From: Microthrixaceae bacterium
GTDB taxonomy: Bacteria; Actinomycetota; Acidimicrobiia; Acidimicrobiales; Microtrichaceae
Direction: 5' to 3'
Assembly (NCBI GenBank): GCA_027493675.1
Contig: JAOSKI010000001.1
Location: 248,001-312,000, forward strand
Length of the DNA stretch: 64,000 bases
A program made the position numbers and the translations under genes. The notes under the pieces are model-generated. The model was not told where the DNA came from. It did not search any database and was given only the letters and a program-made list of their open reading frames with translations. Shown one piece after another: positions 5,207 to 32,972 of the stretch; position 1 is the first letter of the stretch; each line of letters opens with the position of its first letter.

Positions 5207-5856
5207 GTGGTCGACGAGGTCTGGTGTGTCGTGGTGGCGGCCGGATCGGGTCGACGGTTCGGGTCGGCCAAGCAGTTCGAGGCCCTGGGCCCGGAACGGG
5301 TGGTGGATCGTTCGGTTCGCATCGCGGCGGGATCGTGTGACGGCGTTGTGGTGGTCTTGCCGGGTGACGTGTTGCAGGGTGCTGACGGCCAAGTGCCACT
5401 TGCAGATGTGGTGGTAGGTGGGGGGGCTACGCGCACCGAGGTCGTCGCGGGCCGGCGTGGGTGCGGTTCCCCGGCCGGGCTGGGGTGATCCTGGTCCACG
5501 ACGCAGCACGGCCGCTTGCCGACTCGGGCGTGTTCGCTCGGGTGATCGATGCGGTCCGCTCCGGTGCTGCGGCCGTGGTCCTGGTGGTGGAGATCGCCGA
5601 CACCATCCGCGAGGTCGACGGGCCGGTGGTCGATCGCGATCGGCTCCGTGCTGTGCAGACGCCCCAGGGGTTCCGAGCGGCGGCAATCCGCGAGGCCCTG
5701 GACGACTGTGCCGATGCCACCGACGATGCCGGCGCTGTCGAGGCCGCAGGGTATGAGGTGCGGATGGTGGCAGGCGATCCGATCAACCGGAAGATCACCA
5801 CTCCGGCTGACCTACTCTTCGCAAGGGCTGTCGTGGGGCAGTCCGGGCAAGGCTGA
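5207..5856 (+). CDS. ispD: 2-C-methyl-D-erythritol 4-phosphate cytidylyltransferase (frameshifted)
   Basis: VVVAAGSGRRFGSAKQFEALG, VLVHDAARPLADSGVFARVIDAV, VQTPQGFRAAAI; followed by ispF. Confidence 0.92.
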
Positions 5857-11039: not shown

Positions 11040-11847
11040 TTGTGTGCGGCACCATACGGTGGCGTTTCGGGGACTGTCAAGATCGTTGGTGACCCGGCTG
11101 CCGCCGGCGACCCGATAGCGGGCGCGACCCGGTCCCGAAGTGGCTGTGCAAGGCAGGCCGGGTCGGCTCGAGGCCCGACGGCAAGGTGGGTGGCTCCAGC
11201 GGACCGTCTGCCACGGCCGTGACCGCTGCCAACAAGTCCACGTGATCACAGCGGGCAACTGCGTGTTGGATCCCGATCCTGATGACGACGGTGTCGTGGA
11301 CGGCAACGGCTACTGGTTCGCGAACATCCAGTTCTGCCCCGGATGAGAGTGCGGATGCAAGATGGGTTCCTGGAAGTACCGCAGGGTGTCGACGACCCCG
11401 GGCTGGTACTACGGGACCAACGGCGTGTACGACTTCAGGGACGATGTCGCTGTGGTTCTGTTGAACCGCGATCGCTCCAACCGCTACATCCAGGATGTCA
11501 CCGGCTCGCAGGGGATCATCTTCAACCAGTACGTCGGACTCAAGCGGTACACCTTCGGGTATCCAGCGCCAGACGGCCGCTGGCCGCAGTACAGGTACAA
11601 CGGCGAGGATCTCATCTATGCCATCGCCAGGGACACCTACGACACGACCAAGCCCGGCACGATGTGGATCAGGTCCACCATGACCGGAGGATCGAGTGGC
11701 GGCCCGTGGATCATCAGCCCGAATAGCCGGTTCTTCGGCTACGTCAACTCGGTCAACAGCCACAAGCCGTACGGCGGTGCCCAAATGAGCGGCCCGTGCT
11801 TTGGCAACGCCGAGCTGCAGCTGTTCAACACATGGAAGGCTGCCTGA
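11040..11847 (+). pseudogene. Trypsin-like serine peptidase homologue, frameshifted, no visible signal peptide, catalytic His apparently replaced
   Basis: VITAGNCV (expected TAGHC), DFRDDVAVVLLN, TGGSSGGPW Ser motif, GYVNS; N-terminal part in different frames. Confidence 0.6.
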
Positions 11848-16207: not shown

Positions 16208-16280
16208 GCCCGAGTAGCTCAGTTGGCAGAGCAGCTGTCTTGTAAACAGCAGGTCAGGAGTTCGATTCTCCTCTCGGGCT
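16208..16280 (+). tRNA. tRNA-Thr(TGT)
   Basis: gcccgagtagctcagttggcagagcagctgtcttgtaaacagcaggtcaggagttcgattctcctctcgggct; all four stems form; anticodon TGT in loop CTTGTAA. Confidence 0.95.
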
Positions 16281-16282
16281 CT
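16239..16282. repeat. att core copy 1 (within tRNA-Thr)
   Basis: 44-bp sequence repeated at 28297 and 32726. Confidence 0.95.
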
Positions 16283-16432: not shown

Positions 16433-17566
16433 GTGATGAAGCGGGGGCTCGACGTGGACCTACGTCCTGTACCTGGGACGGGATGCCTCGGGGAAGAAGC
16501 AGCAGAAGTGGGTCGGCGGCCACCGGACGAAGAAGGAGGCCGAGGACGCGCTCACCGAAGCGCTCGAACGGATGCGCACCGGGATGTGGGTCGATCCCGG
16601 CGTCACCACGCTCGGCGAGTACCTGACCGAGTGGCTCGCCGCAATGGAGTCGAACGTCGTCGACACGACGTTCCGCGCCTACGAGCAGTCGATGCGCAAC
16701 TGGGTGGTGCCGAGGCTCGGGTCCGTGCGCCTGGCCGAGGTCTCGCCGATGCATCTGCGGTCGCTGCAGACCGAGCTGCTGCGCGACGGACGGGTCGACG
16801 GCAAGGGCGGCCTGGCGCCCAGGTCGGTGGCGTCATGTCGTCGGGTGTTGAGCCAGGCGCTGAAGGACGCCGTGCGGTGGGGTCTGTTGATCCGCAACCC
16901 GATGGACGCAGTCGACCCGCCGAGGGTGGTGGACGCCGAGATGGTCACATGGTCCGACACCCAGGCCCGAGCGTTCCTCGACGCCGTGGCCGGCGACCGG
17001 CTGTATGCGATGTGGGTGCTGTTCCTGACCACCGGTGTGCGCCGCGGCAGAGGTGGCCGGACTTCGATGGGACGACGTCGACCTCGATCGGGCGTCGATG
17101 GCGATCGTCCGCAACCGGGTCTCGGCCGGGCGAGGTAAGGCGGTGAGCACGCACCAGCCCAAGACTCGACGTGGGCGTCGCAACGTCGCACTCGACGTGA
17201 CTTCGGTCGAGGTGCTGCGGGCACACCGGACCACCCAGCTCGAGGAGCGGATGCGTCTCGGCCCAGCGTGGGCCGAGTCCGGCTACGTCTTCTGTGGCAT
17301 CGACGGCGCAGCGCTGCATCCCGACACGATCACCGCGACGTTCAAGTCGATCATTCCACAACCTCGACGTGCCCCAGATCCGTCTGCACGACCTGCGCCA
17401 CACCTCAGCGACCCTGGCGCTCAAGGCCGGCATCCATCCGAAGGTGGTCTCCGAACGCCTCGGTCACGCGACGGTCAGCATCACCCTCGACCTCTACAGC
17501 CATGTCCTCGACGGTATGCAGGCCCAGGCTGCCGAGCAGATCGGCGCCGTCGTGTTCGGCACCTGA
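16433..17566 (+). CDS. Tyrosine-type site-specific integrase of element 1 (frameshifted)
   Basis: TYVLYLGRDASGKKQQKWVGGHRTKKEAEDAL arm-binding domain, TLGEYLTEWLAAM, RLHDLRHTSATLALKAGIHPKVVSERLGHATVSITLDLYSHV. Confidence 0.93.
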
Positions 17567-17580
17567 CTCACCAGCCCAGG

Positions 17581-20080
17581 TCAGAGGTCGTCGTCGGCGC
17601 CGGGGTCGGGATCGGGATCCGCGGTCGATGGCGAGCTCCTTGGCGGCGCTCCTGTGGAGCGACTCGACGACGACGTCGTAGGGGTCGGCACGCTCCTCAT
17701 GTCGTCCGTGGCGTTCGAGCTCCTCGGCTAGCTCGGTCGACACGACGTACATGCGGTTCGACTCGCGGCCCCGGCTGAGCCCGACATAGCCCATCTCTCG
17801 GTGCAGGTCGTCGCTGGCCAGCAGCAGGCCGTGGTCGCAGGTCCGGCCCTGGGCCTTGTGGACCGTCACGGCATAGCCGTGCCGCATCCTTCCTTCGGCG
17901 AGGTAGTCGGAGCCGAGCACGCGGTCGCCTTCCTCCGTGGCGATGGTGACGGTCGTCGTTCGGTGGTCGATGGCGATGATCTGCCCGATGGTGCCGTTGC
18001 GGACGCCGTTCGGATGGTCGTTGCGCGTGCAGACCACGTGGTCGCCGACCTGGAACGGCCGCCCGGCGACGATCATCGGCTCGCCGCTCCAGCTCCCCCA
18101 GCCGCAGCGACGACGCGCCGTGCCCGGCGATTCAGGTCGTCCACGTCGGCATTACGCCTCGCCATCATCAGCGCGGTCCGGCCGTCGTTCCGATGACGCA
18201 GCCAGTCGCCGACCATTCCATCGCGCACCGCCTCGGCGTTCGGTGCGGTCACCACGTCGCCGTGCTCACGCAGCGACCGCATCGCACGTTCGACATCTCC
18301 GGAGCGGAGCTGGTCGAGGGCGTCGCGCTCGACGGTGTCTCGCTGCCGGCGGTTCTCGCTGAGCGTCAGGATCGGATGGCGACGCTCCAGCGATGCGAGC
18401 ACGCCACCGGTCTTGATCTCCGGGAGCTGCTTCGGGTCGCCGACGAGCACCACCTTCGCTCCGCTCGCCACCGCAGCCTGCAAGAGCGGGCCGAGAGTCC
18501 GGGTGCCGACCATGCCGGCCTCGTCGATCACCAGGACGGTACGTCGATCCAGCCGCTGGCGGTCGCGTTCCAGGTCCAGGGTGAGCTTGGCGATGGTGCT
18601 CGACGGGATGCCCGAGCCGGCCTCGAGCTCATGCGCCGCGGATGCGGCCAGGGCGCAGCCGATGACCCGGTAGCTGCTGCGCTGCCACGCTTCTCGTGCC
18701 GCATCGAGGCTGAACGTCTTGCCGGTCCCTGCGGCGGCGACGAGCACGTCGACCGAATGGCCGGAACTGCACATCTCGGTGACGACGTGTGCCTGTTCGG
18801 GGCTGACCGTTGGTCGAGCGTCGAAGGCTGATGCGAGGGCGCTCGGCGACGCAACCGCACGGCCGGCGCCCACCCCCTCGCCGATGAGCCAGACGAGGTC
18901 CTGTTCCAGGTCCATCAGCTCGACGGTGGAGAAGCTGGTTCCGGTCCGCTCCTCCCAGCCGACGGCTACGACCTCGGGGCGTTTCAGGTACTGCGACGCC
19001 AACGACTCGATCACCCCGACGGGGACGGCTGCTGGCAGCTCGTCGATCAGACGACGGAGCACATCGCGGTGATCGAACGTCGAGTGTGCCTCGGTCAACC
19101 CGCTGGATGAGGTGAGCCGGTCGAACAGCGCGATTGTCTCGTCAGCGTCAAACGACGGGACCTGATGGTCAGCCATGACCAAGGCCAGATCGGCCGGGTC
19201 GATACCGATGGTCAGGGCCTCGGAGCGCCACCGGGCTTGCTGGTCAGGTGTTCGTTCAGGGCTGACCACCTTCGCTGCTCGGGTCTCCAGGGTCGAGACC
19301 TGCGCGGCCTTGGCCGAGGTCAGGCCCCACTCGGCCATGGTCAGCTCGATCTGCTGCGCCGCTTGGAGAACAGGTCGATCAGCTCTCGTCGATGCCGGCG
19401 ATGTCAGCCAGTCCGTCGTGGATCGGCGTCCAGGCCACGCCGAGCCGGTCGGTCAGCTCGTTGCGGAGGTGCGCCTGGTAGAGGTAGCCCGCGGTGCGGG
19501 CGTGGTCGTACAGCGCCGTGGCGTCGATCGTCCGCCATCGCCCGTCTGCGGCACGCACCGAGTTCGCCACCAGCACATGGGTGTGCAGCAACGGATCACG
19601 ATCGCGGGACGTGCGGTGCCGGAACCCCGCGGCGATGAACCCGTCCGCCTCCACCCGGTGGATCCCATTGCGGCCCGCGCGTGTGAACGCTGCGACCTCT
19701 TCCATGTACGCGACGGCCCGACCCACGGCAGCATCGTGCGCGGCGGCGACCTGGCGAGTGACGTCCGGTTCCCCGAGCCCCCAGAGGATCGACACCGACT
19801 TCGGCGCCCGGAACGTCAGGTCCCAGCCGGGCACCTTGCGGTTCTTCGCCCGATGCAGCCGCACGCCTGTCTCGGGATGGTGCCCGCTGAGCACGGCCCG
19901 CAGGTCATCGCCGTCAACGACGCCATCGAGGCCGAGCAGATTCGATGAGGCGAGCCAGTAGCCGGGCGACTCGCCGGCCTCGGCGTAATAGTCCTCCACA
20001 CCGGAAACGACCTGGTCGAGGTAGTACGACTCGGCGCCTGGGGCCAGCCGGTGGAGGTTCAACACCCTGACCACCACATC
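17581..20080 (-). CDS. MobF/TrwC-TraI-type relaxase-helicase (frameshifted)
   Basis: Relaxase EDYYAEAGESPGYWLA, FRAPKSVSILWGLG, DPLLHTHVLVANSVRAADGRWRTIDA; helicase VAAAGTGKTFSLDAA, VLVIDEAGMVGTRTLGPLL, GDPKQLPEIKTGG, YAVTVHKAQGRT. Confidence 0.92.
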
Positions 20081-20156
20081 GACCCGAGGCCGGCCGCATC
20101 GGTGATGCAAGTCTGTGACCTCGATTGGCGCGGGTGCTGCTGCGCGCAGACCGTCC

Positions 20157-20348
20157 TCATTCGTGCGCCGCCGATTCTCGAGTGGAGCGACAGGCGAGGA
20201 GTTCCTCGATCGCCTGGCGTGGGACCACGACGCGCCGACCGAGCGTGATCGATGGCAGCTCCCCGGTACGCACGCAGTCGTACGCGTGAGCCCGGGAGAT
20301 CCCCAGGACCTGAGCCGCCTCGGACACCGACAGAGTGCGGCGTTCCAT
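20157..20348 (-). CDS. Excisionase-family/MerR-like helix-turn-helix DNA-binding protein
   Basis: MERRTLSVSEAAQVLGISRAHAYDCVRTGELPSITLGRRVVVPRQAIEELLA. Confidence 0.85.
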   Translation of the reverse strand: MERRTLSVSEAAQVLGISRAHAYDCVRTGELPSITLGRRVVVPRQAIEELLACRSTRESAAHE

Positions 20349-20421
20349 CTGTTCCACTGGGTCACCTCCGAGTCGCCCGGTGGAAACTGGTCGATCCAGC
20401 GCACCCGAGTCCTCAGGTGCC

Positions 20422-20895
20422 CTAAGCGCGCAGCCAGTCCCCGAGATCGGAACCGGGCAGCCCTTCCCGACACGCAAGGCCGCGCCAGCACGAGGACCTA
20501 ATGCGGCGCCGCTCAACGGGAGTCCGATGAGCACGACCGCCACCGCCGAACCGGCGGTCAGTGCGGCCGTCCAAGCGAGGTCCCGGGACGGACGGGGGCG
20601 CCCGGTCGAGGAACCGGAAGACCAGGGCGACGAGCGTGCCGTTGATGCAGAAGACCGCCAGGTTGATGATGACCGCGTTCCGCTCGTCGGTCGGAAGCGC
20701 AGCGCGAACCAAGAGCGCGAAGCCCACAGCGAGGAGCGCTGCCGCCGCAACCGTTGCCGCAGTCACTCTGAACAAGCTGGTGGGAGGTCTCCGCGTCGAG
20801 CACCTTCTCGGTCCCGACGTAGGTGAGGAGCGTTCCAGCGACACCGGTCAAGAGGAAGGCGACGATCTGCAACGCAACTGCAGGGGACGACCGTC
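20422..20895 (-). CDS. Hypothetical small integral membrane protein (frameshifted)
   Basis: Hydrophobic segments LQIVAFLLTGVAGTLLTYVG, TAATVAAAALLAVGFALLVRAAL, NAVIINLAVFCINGTLVALVFRFLDRAP in adjacent frames. Confidence 0.4.
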
Positions 20896-20965
20896 CCGGA
20901 CGGTGTGCCGGAACCCTACCTGCAGCGGGCGAACGGGGGTTCAGGGCCGCTACAGTGGGTGAACA

Positions 20966-21012
20966 GGCGATGGAGCTCGCCTTTGACCGCCGTTCCGGCT
21001 GATGGCTCCTAC
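20966..21012 (+). ncRNA. Fluoride riboswitch (crcB motif)
   Basis: aggcgatggagctcgcctttgaccgccg-ttc-cggctgatggctcctacc: P1 GGCG/CGCC, P3 GCCG/CGGC, pseudoknot GGAGC/GCTCC, conserved GATGGCTCCTAC; upstream of CLC-F/eno. Confidence 0.93.
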
Positions 21013-21081
21013 CGAATCCAGTGCATGTGGTGTGCACTCGGCCGGTAGGCGTCGTCCGGGTTCAGACCAGATGCACCGCAG

Positions 21082-22500
21082 ATGTGGGAGCAGAAGATGG
21101 TCGACCGGAACACCCGAGGAACGGCTCGATCGGTGCTGCAGCACGGGTACGACTCGGTGCGGGACCTGGTCGGGTTCGATGCCGGCGAGCAGGTGGCATT
21201 GATCAGCCACATGCTGCGCTGGGTGCTGCTCGGCTCGCTGGTCGGGGTGCTGGGCGGGATCTCGTCCGCAGTGTTCTTGACCGCGCTGAGGTGGGCAACG
21301 GAGTCATTCGACGAACACGCGTGGCTGCTCTACCTGTTGCCGCTGGGTGGTCTGGCGATCGGCCTGGCGTACCACTACGGGGGTGGGCGGTCGGTCGAGG
21401 GCAACAACTTGATCATCGACGAGATCCACGAGCCGAAGGCGTGGGTGCCGCGACGGATGGCGCCGATGGTGCTGGTCGGCACCGTCGTCACCCACCTGTT
21501 CGGTGGTTCGGCGGGCCGTGAGGGCACGGCGATCCAGATGAGCGGCAGCCTCACCGACGCCGCGTCGAGGATCCTTCGCCTGGACCCGTATGACCGGCGG
21601 ATCATGTTGATCACCGCGATCGCCGGCGGGTTCGGTGCCGTGTTCGGCGTGCCGCTCGCCGGTGCGGTGTTCGCGCTGGAGGTCCAGTCGGTGGGTCGGG
21701 TGCAGTACGAGGCATTGGTGCCGTGCCTGGCGGCGTCGGTCGTCGGTGACCTCGTCGTGGCCGGGCTCGGTGTGCACCACACCGCGACCCCTGATCTCGG
21801 CCATGTCGCTCTGTCCGGCGGGCTGTTGTTGAAGGTGATGCTGGCCGGCCTGGCGTTCGGGTTGGCGAGCGTCGTGTTCTCCGAGCTCGCGCACGGCATC
21901 AGCGGGCCTTCGGCCGGTGGGTCAGCTGGGCGCCGGGCCGGCCGTTCATCGGCGGGTTCCTGGTGATCGGGCTCACGCTCGCGGTGGGCGACCGCTTCCT
22001 ACAACGGGCTGTCACTCGGGCTGATCGAGGTGAGCCTGTTCGGCGGCGATGTGCCGACGTGGGGGTTCGCGCTCAAGATCCTGTTCACTGCGGTCACGCT
22101 CGGGTCGGGGTTCGTCGGCGGGGAGGTCACGCCGTTGTTCGTGATCGGCGCCACGCTCGGCGCGACGCTGGCGGGAGTGTTGGACGTGCCGGTGCCGTTC
22201 CTTGCGGCGTTGGGCTTCGTGGCGGTGTTCGCCGGGGCTGCGAACACTCCGCTCGCGTGCACGATCATGGGAGTCGAGTTGTTCGGCGCCGGTGCCGTCC
22301 CGTATTTCGCGGCGGCGTGTGTGATCAGCTACGTGTTCTCGTCACACCGGGATCTATGGCACCCAGCGTCGGGACCCCCAAGCTGCCCCGCTGGTTGCAC
22401 CACGACCAGACCCTCGGCGGGGTCGCTGCGGACCGGCGTCGCTGGCTTCCCGAACGCCGCCCGCCCGCAGCCACCACCGCCGACCTGTCCGACACCTGAC
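21082..22500 (+). CDS. Voltage-gated chloride channel family protein, CLC-F (fluoride/proton antiporter) type (frameshifted)
   Basis: [98 protein letters not shown] and GREGT variants. Confidence 0.92.
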
Positions 22501-22520: not shown

Positions 22521-25509
<2,989 letters not shown>

Positions 25510-25513
<4 letters not shown>

Positions 25514-26820
25514 CCCCGACCGACCCGCCACCAGAGCCGGATCCCGCCGATCAGCCGGAGCGGCTGAGTCGCAACATCAAGATCCTGTCGCTGGTGTCGT
25601 TCTTCCAGGACACCGCCTCGGAGATGCTCTACCCGCTCCTGCCGATCTTCGTGACCTCCGTACTGGGCGCGCCCCCGGCGGTGCTCGGCCTCATCGAGGG
25701 CATCGCCGAGGCCACCGCCTCGATCGGCAAGGTCGCCTCCGGGCGGCTTGCGGACCTGCGCCACCGCCGACCGCTCGTCGCCACCGGCTACGCCATCTCC
25801 TCGATCAGCAAACCACTCATCGGTCTCGCCACCGGCTGGCCACTCGTCCTCGTCGGCCGCTTCACCGACCGTGTCGGCAAAGGCATGCGCGGCTCGCCCC
25901 GCGACGCGCTCATCGCCGATGACACCCACCCCCTGCGAACCGCAGCCGCGCCTACGGTTCCACCGGGCCGCTGACACCGCCGGCGCCGTCGTCGGACCGC
26001 TCATCGGACTCGTGCTCTACGAACTGATCGGACAGCGGATCCGACCGCTGTTCTTCATCGCCTTCATCCCCGCCATCATCAGCGTCGGCCTCATCTTCCT
26101 GGTCAAGGAACCGACCCCACCCGCGGCTCCAAGGCCGAGCCGCCGCACCGTTCTCGGTGTCCGGCCTCCCGACCCGCTACTGGCGAGTCGTCGTCCTCCT
26201 CGGCGCGTTCGCCTTCGTCAACTTCTCCGACACCCTCCTACTGCTCCGCGCCGACGACCTCGGCTTCAGCGTCACCCTCGGTCATCCTCGTCTACGTCCT
26301 CTACAACGCCAGCTACGCGCTGCTCAGCTACCCCGCCGGCGTCTGTGTCGGACCGCATGCCACGCCGCATCGTCTTCGCCGTCGGCCTCTGCTCTTCGCG
26401 ACGACCTACATCGGCCTCGGACTCACGACCTCCAGCGCGACGATCTGGGTGCTGTTCGCCATCTACGGCGGGTACGCCGCCCTCACCGACGGCATCAGCC
26501 GAGCCTGGGTCGCCGACCTCGCACCCCGCTCCGAGGTCGGCACCGCGCTCGGCGTCCACGGCGGCATCACCGGCATCGGCGCTTTCGCCGCGTCGCTCTG
26601 GGCAGGGCTCGCCTGGGGACACGACGGCCGCGGACCCCTCGTCATCGCCGGAGCCGTCGTCGCCGTCCTCGCCGTCGTCCTGCTCACCGGGGGGGTCAGC
26701 GCTGGACCCACCGCCGCAGCCTTCCCAGGTGCGCAGCGCGCCGTGATCACTCGGGAACTTCGGTCCGCCACCCATGCCGCTCGCAGCCTCATCATTCAGC
26801 TCAGGGGCACAGGTCCCTGA
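25510..26820 (+). CDS. MFS transporter (frameshifted), last gene of fluoride operon
   Basis: LSLVSFFQDTASEMLYPLLPIFVTSVLGAPPAVLGLIEGIAEATASIGKVASGRLADLRHRRPLVATGY, GRFTDRVGKGMRGSPRDALIAD; GTGA overlap with upstream GTPase. Confidence 0.88.
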
Positions 26821-26898
26821 AGCGCTCTCATGAGTCGAGGACGGGACTCCACCGGAGGAGGAAGATGGTCCCGGCTCACTCGTGACTGAACCAACAGT

Positions 26899-28092
26899 TC
26901 AAGCGTCCCGCTCCTGCAGCTGTGGCACCCGGTTGCTCGGGCGGAGGAGTGCGACGAGGGCGACGAGCATCCACCCCGTGAGGTGGGCGAAGGCCCAGGT
27001 AGGGCTGAGCGCGCTCCAGAGGATGCCGGCGATGGCGCTGGCGGCGAGGTTACCGGAGGCTCTGCACTGCAGCGAGCAGCCCGAACGCTGAGCCGCGTAG
27101 TTCGTCGGGGGCGTGGGTGGCGACAGCTGCGTGTTCGGCAGTCTCAACGCATCCGATGCCGATTCCGGCGAGCACGAAGAACGGCAGCAGCATCGCCCAG
27201 CCGGTCGTGTCGCGGGTGAAGCCGAGGTAGGCGAGAGCGAAGGCGGCGACGCCGAACATGAGGACGCGGGTGGCACCGCGTCGGTCGCTGTGGTGCCCGG
27301 CTGCGACGCTGGTCAATGTGGCGGCGATGTTGTAGCCGACGTACAACCACAAGGCCATGGTGGTAGCCCGGCTCTGGCCATGGCCGGGGGTGAGCAGCTC
27401 GGTGGCCCGCAGGATCAACAGGGTGGCGGCGCAGTTGCCGACCTCGAACGCCGTGATCCCACCGAACAGCGACCGCAACGGACCGACCAGCACCGGTCGC
27501 ACTCGGATCCGCAACGGCTTGCGTTCCACCTTCTCCGGCTTCTCGGTGTGGCGGATGGCGTAGATGATCGCCACCGCAGCGAGGGAGCCCGGGAGGACCG
27601 ACAAGCCGATCGCCCACCGGGTGCCGACGATCGTGATGAGCACGATGGCCAGCACCGGTCCGAGGATGGCACCGAGGTTGTCCATGGCCCTCTCGAATCC
27701 GTAGGCCCGCCCATAGGCCGTCGCGGGCACGACGTCCGCGAGGAGCGCATTTCGGGCCGGCACCCGCAGACCCCGCGCCGTCCACGCCCCGGCGCGCAAC
27801 AACGCGACCTGCCACACGCCGGTGGCAGCGCCGATGCCGGCGGAGAGCACAGCGGTGGTCGTGTAGCCGCCGACGGCGACAGTGCGACGCCGCTCCGGCT
27901 CATCCGCCAACGCCCCGCCGGCGAACCGCCACCCCGGCGAGCGCGTCGCTCACCCCTTCGATCACCCCCAGCGCCGAGGCCGGAGCGCCGAGGGTCGAGG
28001 TGAGCAGGGACGGCAACAACGCCGGTCGGGACCTCGTGGCCGACATCCGCCAGCAGGCTGGCGGTACCGATCCCAGCCACTCCCGGTGTCAT
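26899..28092 (-). CDS. MFS transporter, convergent to the fluoride operon (frameshifted)
   Basis: LRVPARNALLADVVPATAYGRAYGFERAMDNLGAILGPVLAIVLI, GYNIAATLTSVAAGHHSDRRGATRVLM, C-term LLRPSNRVPQLQERDA. Confidence 0.85.
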
Positions 28093-28296: not shown

Positions 28297-28340
28297 CTTG
28301 TAAACAGCAGGTCAGGAGTTCGATTCTCCTCTCGGGCTCT
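28297..28340. repeat. att core copy 2 (attR of element 1 / attL of element 2)
   Basis: 44/44 identical to 16239-16282. Confidence 0.95.
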
Positions 28341-28476
28341 GTTCAGACCCGCCGAAGCCCTTGGAATTGCAGGGGTTCTCGGCACGTGGTCAGGTTGGTG
28401 TTCAGACCCGACCGTCACCGTGTCTCACGGAATCCCACCGACGTCTCACGAATCGGTGCGAGAACGGAGAGACAGG

Positions 28477-29629
28477 ATGCAGGGCAGCAAGCGCAAGGGA
28501 CGACGTCCGGGGACCTGGGAGCTGCGCGTCGACGCCGGTGAGGACCCGTTGACGCGCAAGCGTCAGCAGAAGTCGGTGACCTTCCACGGCACCTCGCGCC
28601 AGGCCGACGTCGCGTTGGCCGAGCTGATCACCAAGTCAGCTCGCGGCCAGGTGTCGGTCGGCCAGCGCACCGTCGCGCACGCGGTCGAGGCGGGGCTGCG
28701 TCAGGCCGAGCCTCGAAGGGCTCGAGCCGACGACGTTGCGCAACTACCGCACCTCGGCCGAGTGCCACGTGCTGCCGGCGCTCGGGTCACGTCGGCTGTC
28801 GCACCTGAGCGCCGAGCACCTCGACCGCTTCTACGGCGCGCTGGTCGAGGCGGGCTACTCGCGCTCGACGGTGCGCGGCTGTCACGTGCTCCTGTGCCGG
28901 GTGCTCGACCAGGCGAAGCGCTGGGGATGGGTCGCTGTCAACGTCGGACGCGACGCACGCCCACCTCGCCAGCACACGTCGAACCCGAAGCCGGTGCCGA
29001 TCGACGTGGCGAGGTCGATGATCGACGAGGCGGCGAAGGTGAACCCGACGCTCGCCACGCTGATCGTGCTCGCAGCCGACACCGGCGCGCGACGCGGTGA
29101 GCTGTGCGCGCTGCGCTGGCGACACGTCGACGTCGCCGCGAGCACCCTGCGGATCGAGGCGGCGATCGGTGAGACGAACGTCGTCTACGAGAAGGACACC
29201 AAGACCCACCAGCACCGCACGGTCACGCTGTCGTCGTTCGCGCTCGACTGGCTGCTCGACCACCGGGACCGCCACGCCAAGGCGTGCGCGCTGTGCGGCA
29301 TCGAGCTCAGTGACGACGCCTGCGTGCTCGCACCCGAGCCCGGCGGGCTGAAGCCGCTGCACCCTTCGAGCGCGACCAGAGCGTTCAGCCGATTGCGCGA
29401 CCGCATGGAGCTGCCGAGCTGGATCCACCTGCAAGGCCTTCGCCACCTCCAGGTCACCCAGCTCCTCGACGCCGGCATCCCGCTGCGCAGCGTCTCCGGT
29501 CGAGTCGGCCACCGCAATCCGTCGACCACCACGAACATCTACGCCCACTGGATCCAGGAGTCCGACGCACATTCTGCGAAGGTGGTGGGCGGTCGGATCT
29601 GGGGCTCGGCGGAACGTGGTCAGCCCTGA
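28477..29629 (+). CDS. Tyrosine-type site-specific integrase of element 2 (one frameshift)
   Basis: GSKRKGRRPGTWELRVDAGEDPLTRKRQQKSVTFHGT, ADTGARRGELCALRWRHVD, WIHLQGLRHLQVTQLLDAGIPLRSVSGRVGHRNPSTTTNIYAHW. Confidence 0.93.
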
Positions 29630-29724
29630 ACACGGTGCTAGGTAAGGGGTGACCGTTCGGCTCCAGCAGCGGGCCGGCCAGACCACCGGTGGAACCGGAG
29701 CGGGCATACGATCGTCAGACGATC

Positions 29725-30106
29725 ATGCAGCCGAGCACGTTGTGTCGAGCGTTCGTCATAGCGGTCATCAGCACGGGCACCCTCGGTGCGTCTGGTTGTG
29801 CGATCGGTTGGCAGGACCAGCCGATCAGTCGCGTCCTGGTGTCAGCTGACGGTCGTTCGCTCGACGTGGGCTGGCATTGCCACAAGGAAGCCGATGTCGA
29901 GGTGGAGGGAGTCCGAGGACGAGGTGCGGCTCCGCTTCCGTGTCGACAGCTACAAGGGCGACTGCGCTGACCTCGAGCGAGTGACGCTGGCGTCGGCGCT
30001 CGGTGACCGCCGGATCGTCGACTCCACGACTGGCAAAGCGGTGACACCGTGCCTCGACACCAGTGGAGGAGCGGTCGGAACCATGACTGCCCCTGAGTGC
30101 CAGTAG
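29725..30106 (+). CDS. Hypothetical lipoprotein (one frameshift)
   Basis: Signal peptide/lipobox FVIAVISTGTLGASGC; two frames join near 29905. Confidence 0.5.
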
Positions 30107-30131
30107 GCGACCAGCGGTCGATCGCCAGCTG

Positions 30132-30174
30132 GTTGCGCTTGCGCAACAAGCCAGTCTGTGCCACTTCCTGACCA
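30132..30174. repeat. Inverted repeat, left copy, with internal hairpin gttgcgc-tt-gcgcaac
   Basis: Reverse complement of 30797-30840 with a few differences. Confidence 0.85.
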
Positions 30175-30477
30175 CGTCCGAATCTGCAGGATCGGAGCTG
30201 TCGTCAACCGCCGAAGCGCTACCCGGTCGAGATGTCGTACGGGTACCTGATGGCGAGCTGGGAGTATCGCTCTGCGATCACCCACACGACCACGACGCCT
30301 GCTCAGGGACCATCGCGGCGAACGCCGGGCTCGTGCCGGTACCGGCCGAGCATCGTCCCAGCGGCCCTCAGCGTTGCACAGCGCCATCGGGAACCGGATC
30401 ACGGTCTCCCGGCGGTGCGATCGGCTCGACGGCGAGCCAGGGATCCAGGCAGTCCTCGAGCAGGGTCGGCTGGAAGC

Positions 30478-30749
30478 TCACCCGGCCGAGTGGCGGAGGC
30501 GCTTCTCGAGGTCGTCAGCTGGCTGCCCACCAGCGGCGTCGAGCCGCTCGACCTCGGCGACGAACTCGGGGTCCTTGGCCGGGGCCTCGGCCACCGCTGC
30601 GGCGGGATCGGTCCCCTGCTTGACCGCCCGCTCGATGCGGTGCCAGGTGATCTCGCCACGCAGTGCCTTTCCGCCACCTGCGGTGCGTCCTCACCGAACT
30701 CGGCGACGAACTCACGCACCACCTCGTCGGACAGATCGACCGTGCTCAT
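30478..30749 (-). CDS. Small hypothetical protein (frameshifted) between inverted repeats
   Basis: MSTVDLSDEVVREFVAEFGEDAPQVAE / GEITWHRIERAVKQGTDPAAAVAEAPAKDPEFVAEVERLDAAGGQPADDLEKRLRHSAG*. Confidence 0.4.
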
Positions 30750-30796
30750 GTCGGCAAGAGTACGCCTCGACGGGTCCGAGCCATCGGCGAGTTGCG

Positions 30797-30840
30797 GTGG
30801 TCAGGAGGTGGCACAGACTGGCTTGTTCCGCATGCGGAAC
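30797..30840. repeat. Inverted repeat, right copy, with internal hairpin gttccgc-at-gcggaac
   Basis: gtggtcaggaggtggcacagactggcttgttccgcatgcggaac. Confidence 0.85.
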
Positions 30841-30913
30841 AGGCGGGGGGCGGTTGGAGCGAGTCCTGACAGCTGCCCGGCTACCCCCGATCGCTGATAT
30901 CATTTCTGAGATC

Positions 30914-31255
30914 ATGTGGTCGGTCGAGCTCGAACCAGAGGTGGAGGAATGGCTCGACACGCTCAGCACAATCGAGTTCGCCACCGTGCTTCCCCACATC
31001 GAGCGGCTGGCGGATCGTGGCAGTGCATTGCGGATGCCGGCGTCGAGGCCACTGGGCGACGGTCTGTTCGAACTCCGGTTCGACATGTCGAATGCGGCGT
31101 GGAGGATTCCGTTCTTCTTCGTGCCCGAGCGCAGGATCGTGCTGCTGACGGTGTTCCGCAAGCAGCGCATGAACGAGCGACAAGAGATCACCCGGGCTCG
31201 AGCGGCGATGACCCGCTGCATCGCTGAGGCCCACACCGCAGAGGAGGACGACTGA
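30914..31255 (+). CDS. RelE/HigB-like toxin (phage-derived Gp49-like)
   Basis: WSVELEPEVEEWLDTLSTIEFATVLPHIERLADRGSALRMPASRPLGDGLFELRFDMSNAAWRIPFFFVPERRIVLLTVFRKQRMNERQEI; TGATG overlap with XRE antitoxin. Confidence 0.88.
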   Translation: MWSVELEPEVEEWLDTLSTIEFATVLPHIERLADRGSALRMPASRPLGDGLFELRFDMSNAAWRIPFFFVPERRIVLLTVFRKQRMNERQEITRARAAMTRCIAEAHTAEEDD

Positions 31256-31560
31256 TGGCACGAACCACGATCGATGACCTGAAGGCCCGACGCCTGGGCC
31301 AGATGTCCGAGGCAGAGCTCGCCGAGTTCGACGCTACCTACGCCGCGACCAAGTTGGCGCTCGAGGTCGGTGAACAGGTCCGCGACGCGCGGGAGGCGGC
31401 GGGCCTGACCCAGCGCGAGCTCGCCTCGCGGATGGGAACCAGCCAGGCGGCGATCGCCCGTCTCGAAGCCGGAGGGGTCGGCGCCACGCTCACGACGTTG
31501 CAGAAGGTCGCCACCGCGCTGAACCTCGAAGTCGCGGTCCTTCTCCGCCCGGCGAGCTGA
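31255..31560 (+). CDS. XRE-family antitoxin (HigA-like)
   Basis: VGEQVRDAREAAGLTQRELASRMGTSQAAIARLEAGGVGATLTTLQKVATALNLEV. Confidence 0.9.
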   Translation: MARTTIDDLKARRLGQMSEAELAEFDATYAATKLALEVGEQVRDAREAAGLTQRELASRMGTSQAAIARLEAGGVGATLTTLQKVATALNLEVAVLLRPAS

Positions 31561-31690
31561 CCGCTTCTCCCAGGCTCGTTCCGGGCAGTCGGATGCATGA
31601 CCAAGGTCGCGACGGCGCGATCGCCCTGCATGGACCCCCGCCCAACGCTACCGCGACAGGGAGCCACCGGTGGCGGCTTGCAGGCAGAGA

Positions 31691-32571
31691 TCAGATGTCG
31701 TCGAAGAACTCTGGCGACACCACGACGTCTTCCTCGACCCTCGTGACCGTTCGGACACCCAGTTCGTAGCTCTTCAGCAAGTCACACAGCTGGTCCCCAT
31801 CGATGAGTTCGATCGGCGGGCGCCGTCGCGAGTGGCCTCGCTCTGTGCCTCCTTTGTGAACGATCCGGTGGTGATCAAGAGCCCCTTGTCGCCACGACCG
31901 GCCATCGCTCCACGGAAGTCGCGTACCGCATGAGGGGCGACCTTTCCCTGATACCGCTTGTACTGGAAGAAGGTCTGGAAGCTGACGAGAGAGAGCCGAT
32001 AGACGCCCACCCCGTCGATGCCACCGTCGCCGGACTTGCCCGTCACGGTGACGTTCACGAAGCCCGCCTCTCGGAGGAGCCGTTGGGCGAGGCGCTCGAA
32101 ACCGTCCGGCGGCATGCTCAAGAGGCGGTCGAGCAGCTGTCGCTTCCAGTCGAGCTCATCGAGCTCTTCAGGGGCTGCGTCGGTCTCGGCCGCATCGTCA
32201 GGCGGCGGCTGCCTGAGGCGTTCCGCCCGCTGTGCTGCGAGTTCCTTGCGCCATTCCCGATCCCGCTCGATCAACTCGGGTTCGGTGGCCGTTCGGCCGT
32301 AGTCGGTCAAGGACCAGAACCCCTCGCACGCTGTTCTCCACGCGCCGAGGTTCTTCAGGTTCGTCCGAGCCCAGGCGAGGCGGTACTCGATCTCCGACTT
32401 GCTCGAGTCGCCGTGCGGTACGGCGAGCTGGTCCTCGCTGAACCGCTCATGCTCGATGACCTTGTCGACGATCTCCTGGATCGTTCCCGACCCACCGAGG
32501 ATCTTCAGGGCCTCGATCGTCGGACCGAACAGCTGATTCCACTGCGGGATGACGACATCTGCATCGACCAT
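31691..32571 (-). CDS. Mrr-like restriction endonuclease (one frameshift at the C-terminus)
   Basis: N-terminal Mrr_N-like winged helix; catalytic region FERLAQRLLREAGFVNVTVTGKSGDGGIDGVGV...FFQYKRYQGKVAPHAVRDFRGAMAGRGDKGLLITTGSFTKEAQSEA. Confidence 0.9.
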
Positions 32572-32725
32572 CGCGTGACCGTACCCAACGCCGCCCCTGC
32601 CTCACGGCTTGTCTCACGAATCTCTGGACGAACACGGATATCGGGGGTTGAATCACGTGAGACGTCAGCGCAGATTCCCGGACAGGGCGGGCCACGACGG
32701 ACCTGGGTGGACACTTGACCCACGA

Positions 32726-32769
32726 CTTGTAGACAGCAGGTCAGGAGTTCGATTCTCCTCTCGGGCTCT
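32726..32769. repeat. att core copy 3 (attR of element 2)
   Basis: 43/44 identical to 16239-16282 (TTGTAGACAG vs TTGTAAACAG). Confidence 0.95.
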
Positions 32770-32972
32770 GAGTTACATCGGGCTTCGCTCCCTTGGCGTG
32801 GCGTCGAAGGCCTCACGGACCGCCACCGGAAGTTCACCTCGGGGGGTTCTGCGGCACACTCGGTACCTCTGGGAATCTGAGCTGACTCTCGGCCAACACA
32901 CCGGGTGACGTGTTACGACTTGAACACCGCCGAGTAGCGGTCCTCGACCACCAGAGGGGGCCCTCCTGGCTG

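Follow-up and report, generated by a model that had tools for sequence, protein, structure and literature searches.

The fluoride aptamer and the genes behind it

The 64,000-nucleotide stretch of Microthrixaceae DNA analysed here, referred to as the window (assembly GCA_027493675.1, contig JAOSKI010000001.1, positions 248,001 to 312,000), carries a fluoride riboswitch aptamer of Rfam family RF01734 that is followed on the same strand by genes for a CLC-F-type fluoride/proton antiporter (clcF), enolase, a dynamin-like GTPase and a major facilitator superfamily (MFS) transporter, in that order (Table 1). When the window was searched with all Rfam families using cmscan, the aptamer at 20957-21018 (plus strand) matched RF01734 over the full length of the model (positions 1-64), scoring 52.6 bits where the gathering score is 34, with an E-value of 9.8e-12; it was also the single match to this family in the 3.44-Mb genome (E-value 1.2e-13). 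The score is far above chance expectation. An initial annotation of the sequence had proposed a fluoride riboswitch, to be checked by a covariance-model search, and both this score and the CLC-F-type exporter and enolase directly downstream bear the proposal out. Its structural elements were likewise all recovered at the bases it had named, viz. P1 (GGCG 20966-20969/CGCC 20978-20981), P3 (GCCG 20989-20992/CGGC 20996-20999), the pseudoknot (GGAGC 20972-20976/GCTCC 21005-21009) and the conserved 3' motif (GATGGCTCCTAC, 21001-21012). The two hairpins, the pseudoknot and the conserved GAUG and CUCCUAC of the family are thus present in both the sequence and the model alignment, and the aptamer lies 5' of recognizable fluoride-resistance genes: a Voltage_CLC protein whose translation carries GNNLI and GREGT, which we take to be motifs of F-type CLC proteins, and then enolase. 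Considered alone, the riboswitch of the window is an ordinary additional member of RF01734. Fluoride aptamers were found in seven of the 61 genomes in a search of relatives, and none was present in two genomes of the same genus.

The clcF open reading frame (ORF) is broken by frameshifts near 21.9, 22.0 and 22.37 kb, and its probable start at 21097 was picked from the spacing to the Shine-Dalgarno (SD) region. The gap of approximately 20 bases between clcF and the enolase gene suggests a single transcript, and the four genes appear to form an operon. The initial annotation covered neither this apparent operon nor the mobile element and the GTPase family described below. Of the relatives of the second MFS gene, which is on the opposite strand, one has a fluoride aptamer of its own (locus L082; compared genomes and loci are numbered with G and L, respectively) and another adjoins clcF (L033).

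Table 1. Features of the window around the fluoride aptamer
Feature	Position	Strand	Basis
tRNA-Thr(TGT) ending in left att repeat, core CTTGTAAACAGCAGGTCAGGAGTTCGATTCTCCTCTCGGGCTCT	16208-16281	+	ARAGORN; repeats
Tyrosine integrase, frameshifted	16433-17566	+	Pfam Phage_integrase on C-terminal piece
TrwC/TraA-type relaxase-helicase, frameshifted	17405-20491	-	Pfam TrwC, AAA_30
Excisionase-like helix-turn-helix HTH_17, limits approximate	20157-20333	-	Pfam, in ORF 20157-20750
Fluoride riboswitch aptamer, RF01734	20957-21018	+	cmscan and sequence
Anti-aptamer hairpin (predicted)	21001-21056	+	Minimum-energy fold of 20957-21120; shuffles
SD region GTGGGAGC	21084-21091	+	Best-helix scan
CLC-F-type fluoride/proton antiporter gene	21097-22499	+	Pfam Voltage_CLC on both halves; translations
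Enolase gene, frameshifted, end approximate	22521-23780	+	Pfam Enolase_N, Enolase_C
Dynamin-like GTPase gene, frameshifted, ends approximate	23783-25400	+	Pfam Dynamin_N; profile E-value 1.2e-67; tree
MFS transporter gene, frameshifted, ends approximate	25440-26885	+	Pfam MFS_1
Second MFS transporter gene	27050-28092	-	Pfam
Right att repeat of element A, core identical	28297-28340	+	Repeats
Element B of the window, tandem in the same tRNA-Thr site	28341-32770		Pfam; repeats
Third att repeat, one core mismatch, end of tandem element B	32726-32770	+	Repeats

Expression platforms of the fluoride leaders

Downstream of P3, the 3' strand of the aptamer (21001-21014) is able to pair with 21043-21056 to give an extended hairpin, with GATGGC 21001-21006 and CCTACCG 21008-21014 opposite GTCGTC 21051-21056 and CGGTAGG 21043-21049, respectively. 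Folded alone, 21001-21057 reached -31.8 kcal/mol, compared with -17.7 ± 2.8 kcal/mol for shuffled sequences, and one of 1000 shuffles was as low. As the hairpin takes up the 3' strand of the pseudoknot (21005-21009), it and the fluoride-bound aptamer would be mutually exclusive. The small hairpin described in the initial annotation (AGTGCA 21020-21025/TGCACT 21033-21038) does exist, but it is merely the apex of this larger structure; the platform had therefore been seen in part, its 6-bp tip having been recognized while the anti-aptamer hairpin and a second complement were missed. The absence of a U-tract behind the hairpin, noted at the same time, holds in the sequence. The second complement is the SD region, which a best-helix scan paired with GCTCCTAC 21005-21012, in the same 3' strand of the aptamer as is used by the hairpin, over 8 bp with one G-U.

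Pairing between aptamer and platform was assessed across leaders by comparing the strand of each with its own downstream 110 bases, with strands swapped between leaders as the control. Complementarity of own strand and platform gave a z-score of 5.8 in 63 Acidimicrobiia leaders (none of 20,000 permutations was as high) and of 10 in 34 other leaders, above all 20,000 permutations. Platforms of three types were found. In AT-rich actinobacterial leaders (L118, L121, L122, L131), a U-tract follows the complementary arm, the arrangement of a classical terminator, and in many leaders of the Acidimicrobiia the complementary arm is the SD sequence itself, direct pairing being clear in L060, L063, L084, L087 and L097. 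The third type, found in the window and in clcF leaders of the same family (L002, L004, L005), is a hairpin without a U-tract whose right arm begins approximately 20 bases past the aptamer. In these sister leaders the hairpin is retained at +16 to +20 and its arms covary, reading CCUACCG/CGGUAGG in both the window and L005 and UCCUACCU/AGGUAGGG in L004; the corresponding arms in a relative within the Acidimicrobiales (L018) are CCUACCAA/UUGGUAGG. The hairpin may act on either transcription or translation. A first model in which SD pairing alone formed the platform was downgraded because the sister clcF leaders keep the hairpin without the extended SD match.

A family of dynamin-like GTPases behind fluoride aptamers

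In genome G004, a fluoride aptamer is followed by a gene for a GTPase and then by enolase. The G004 protein was searched in 395 genomes of the class and the loci were compared with an aptamer survey of the same class, matches with an E-value of 1e-35 or better being considered strong. Each of the nine strong matches (G004, G168, G118, G117, G322, G225, G330, G359 and the window) is preceded by an aptamer on its own strand. In eight this was an RF01734 match in the survey, two of them under the gathering score; it lies immediately upstream in six, and some 3 kb upstream with intervening genes in G322 and the window. The ninth, in G330 (L086:4276-4411, minus strand), is situated just before the GTPase start codon and carries a 75-nt insertion between its hairpins, such that it scores 20.5 bits, under the Rfam threshold, with all key motifs present. 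Among weaker dynamin matches, an aptamer was found in one of 13 genomes (G406), 3.2 kb upstream; the gene that directly follows this aptamer encodes MutS. The difference between 9/9 and 1/13 has a chance probability of about 2e-5 (hypergeometric, with loci taken as independent), a figure that is optimistic because of shared descent.

A profile search of 397 Actinomycetota genomes provided 30 GTPase loci. Aptamers were called with cmscan, a regular expression having been dropped as too strict, and matches preceded the GTPase at 26 of these loci, part of them under the Rfam gathering score (22-33 bits) and counted for their position; three more loci (L113, L133, L137) show the aptamer motif by eye, and L140, which sits on a long branch, lacks an aptamer. 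When the two surveys were merged, with L111 and L112 (again G117 and G168) counted once and with G406, which the tree does not contain, included, an aptamer was located upstream at 37 of 38 loci from 17 family-level groups. The start codon of the GTPase is mostly some 10-100 bases past the aptamer, and both terminator-like and SD platforms are used. Identity to one reference member is approximately 25-48% within the GTPase clade and about 20-48% over all of the aligned relatives, and the GTPase fragment of the window is found inside this aptamer-linked clade (99% support in the Shimodaira-Hasegawa-like approximate likelihood-ratio test). The comparative evidence for linkage of GTPase and aptamer is strong. 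Within the window's own family, the GTPase was present only in G004 and the window among 33 genomes, which fits transfer; a search of plasmid records returned only partial dynamin matches with 28-41% identity. Neighbors in the GTPase clusters that have aptamers of their own include CrcB, MutS and MFS proteins. Proteins with MutS domain V are encoded directly behind an aptamer at L088:367-1959 (plus strand) and L085:6498-8138 (minus strand), and mutS has been listed among the genes associated with fluoride riboswitches (PMC2864571). At L082, two aptamers lie back to back at 5404-5450 (minus strand) and 5731-5792 (plus strand), of which one faces an MFS gene and the other precedes the GTPase, with an enolase gene nearby.

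With Pfam, Dynamin_N was detected in all eight members examined, the other matches being to general GTPase families only. No NCBIfam model exceeded its cut-off with the first member, the best scores being 57.5 bits vs 1600 for DynA, 22.6 vs 325 for LeoA, and 19.7 vs 1146 for CrfC. An AlphaFold model of a full-length member, which replaced an earlier model of a member without part of the stalk (predicted local distance difference test [pLDDT] score of 72), reached a pLDDT of 86 and had IniA and BDLP as its best folds in the PDB, with an identity of 15-18% in the structural alignments. By their Dynamin_N G domain and the long helical stalk predicted in this model, the GTPases belong to the dynamin superfamily. 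The model has a low-confidence loop at residues 444-461, in the same region as the conserved hydrophobic stretch RFFYLFLH, which is a candidate site of membrane contact.

The carrier element, proposed mechanism and known systems

The fluoride genes lie within an element of 12.06 kb, element A, whose att core of approximately 44 bp is the 3' end of tRNA-Thr(TGT), the left and right repeats being 12,058 bp apart. In addition to the fluoride cassette, it encodes a tyrosine integrase, a TrwC relaxase-helicase and an HTH_17 excisionase-like protein; it hence has both an integrase and att repeats on either side, at a tRNA gene, as is characteristic of integrative elements. No type IV secretion system family was recognized among the scanned ORFs beside the TrwC relaxase, the ORFs being broken and part of the frames having been scanned. 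In genome G003, this tRNA runs straight into the right flank of element A (28297-28345), as would be seen at an empty site, although the DNA past this junction is rearranged relative to the window. From its gene content and repeats, element A would be an integrative and mobilizable-looking element, with the fluoride cassette as its apparent cargo. The tandem element B encodes a second integrase (28736-29629), a Gp49-like (HigB-type) protein and an Mrr-type restriction nuclease (31774-32571). Elsewhere, genome G006 has a clcF gene with a riboswitch in the neighborhood of genes for an MFS protein, a TrwC relaxase and a Prim-Pol protein (L033:10001-18967); this locus is probably also a mobile element, although an integrase was not located there. 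On contig C7 of G004, copies of the tRNA-Thr 3' end at L040:9216-9261 and 11238-11284, together with others at 948, 3867 and 99475 of that contig, suggest an array of tandem integrated elements.

Given the aptamer, its complementarity to the platform, the gene content, the att repeats and the family-wide linkage of GTPase and aptamer, all of which are read from sequence, we infer a fluoride response, a common operon, a role for the GTPase and mobility, and assign a probability of about 80% to an ON-type fluoride riboswitch that would control a clcF-enolase-GTPase-MFS operon carried by an element at tRNA-Thr. In the absence of fluoride, the strand that closes the pseudoknot, GAUGGCUCCUACCG, would be sequestered in the anti-aptamer hairpin 21001-21056 and could also pair with the SD region, and little CLC-F would be made. 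Mg-bound fluoride would allow the pseudoknot 20972-20976/21005-21009 to form at the expense of both the hairpin and the SD pairing, permitting expression of clcF, enolase, the GTPase and the MFS transporter. CLC-F would then export fluoride and the extra enolase would compensate for the inhibited enzyme, while the BDLP/IniA-like GTPase would most likely remodel or protect the membrane when acid and membrane stress accompany fluoride. This last role, considered by itself, is about evenly poised. It would be consistent with the membrane fission reported for IniA (PMC6715688), the membrane surveillance against antibiotics reported for DynA (PMC8844932), and the acid stress and lowered proton-motive force brought about by fluoride (PMC11139923).

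A number of observations count against the proposed riboswitch-controlled operon. The ORFs for clcF, enolase, GTPase, MFS transporter, relaxase and integrase are all frameshifted, which could signify gene decay. Most genes across the window are split between frames, however, and ORFs of 300 amino acids or more cover 0.39 of it compared with 0.69-0.79 in three related genomes; with this low coverage and an assembly completeness of 55.8% by markers, the frameshifts look like indel errors of assembly, and true pseudogenes are the less likely cause. In addition, neither the window nor the sister clcF leaders have a U-tract, these sisters do not keep SD pairing beyond the SD core, whole-chain template-modelling scores of the GTPase to IniA and BDLP are 0.36-0.45, and its function is deduced solely from fold and linkage.

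With respect to how the switch operates, the hairpin could terminate transcription with no U-tract to assist it, or could act as a Rho-dependent pause site. Such transcriptional control has the same geometry as the U-tract leaders L118, L121, L122 and L131, but in view of the missing U-tract in the window and its sisters, its prospects are put at somewhat under even. A plain translational switch, in which GCUCCUAC 21005-21012 would pair directly with the SD region GUGGGAGC 21084-21091 and the intervening hairpin would be incidental, appears rather unlikely. It would account for the 8-bp complement with its one G-U and for the direct pairing in L060, L063, L084, L087 and L097, yet part of any such match is expected because CUCC is anti-SD by nature, the very stable hairpin 21001-21056 uses the same strand, and the three same-family clcF leaders preserve the +16 to +20 hairpin and not the extended SD match.

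Other explanations concern the GTPase. That it merely accompanies fluoride clusters through shared ancestry, with no fluoride role, is very unlikely: linked clusters can persist through descent or transfer, but most of the GTPase genes are preceded, at a distance of tens of bases, by an aptamer of their own, and the partners differ, more than one kind of platform is used and sequence identity is low. For dynamin-type GTPases, metal-fluoride complexes act as mimics of the transition state. Instead of remodelling membranes, the protein might be a spare or substitute for a fluoride-inhibited GTPase, much as with enolase, which is such a target within the same operon, or might itself be locked by GDP and a fluoride phosphate mimic; fluoride is known to inhibit phosphoryl-transfer enzymes (PMC11139923). 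This possibility is a doubtful one: the family matches generic dynamin and GTPase models only, the first member exceeds no NCBIfam cut-off, and a housekeeping counterpart is accordingly not evident. A more far-reaching and quite improbable extension is that the Actinomycetota possess a distinct dynamin-like GTPase family for the fluoride response, induced through the riboswitch, in which metal-fluoride on GDP may lock an assembled membrane state, the toxic ion both inducing and activating the protein.

By its occurrence nearly always behind fluoride aptamers, this large, diverged GTPase family is strongly implicated, through guilt by association, in an arm of fluoride resistance for which no description was found and which could be one of membrane remodelling; a defined stimulus thereby becomes available for a group of bacterial dynamins. 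CLC-F and enolase have both been named as fluoride-riboswitch genes, within a list of associated genes that comprises exporters, Na+/H+ antiporters, pyrophosphatase, haloacid-dehalogenase-type proteins, enolase, formate hydrogen lyase and chorismate mutase (PMC11139923). Among the papers searched, none linked a fluoride aptamer to any bacterial dynamin; the genes listed by Baker et al. (2012), where the association may carry a different name, lay outside that search. Operon and GTPase family together point to a fluoride-response gene family for which no description was found.

In its aptamer sequence, P1, P3, pseudoknot and downstream CLC-F and enolase genes, the locus resembles other RF01734 (crcB) riboswitches, from which it differs by an anti-aptamer hairpin without a U-tract in place of the canonical terminator. 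The GTPase family shares a predicted fold and the Dynamin_N domain with mycobacterial IniA and cyanobacterial BDLP; unlike these, it is found behind fluoride aptamers, and its identity to them is low. The fluoride operon of Enterobacter cloacae FRM on genomic island GI3 (PMC5533749) likewise lies on horizontally acquired DNA and joins a fluoride riboswitch to genes for enolase and an exporter, whereas the cassette of the window comprises CLC-F, GTPase and MFS genes on a tRNA-Thr element with an integrase and a TrwC relaxase, and would thus place fluoride resistance on a tRNA-targeted, mobilizable-looking element and not on a transposase-flanked island.
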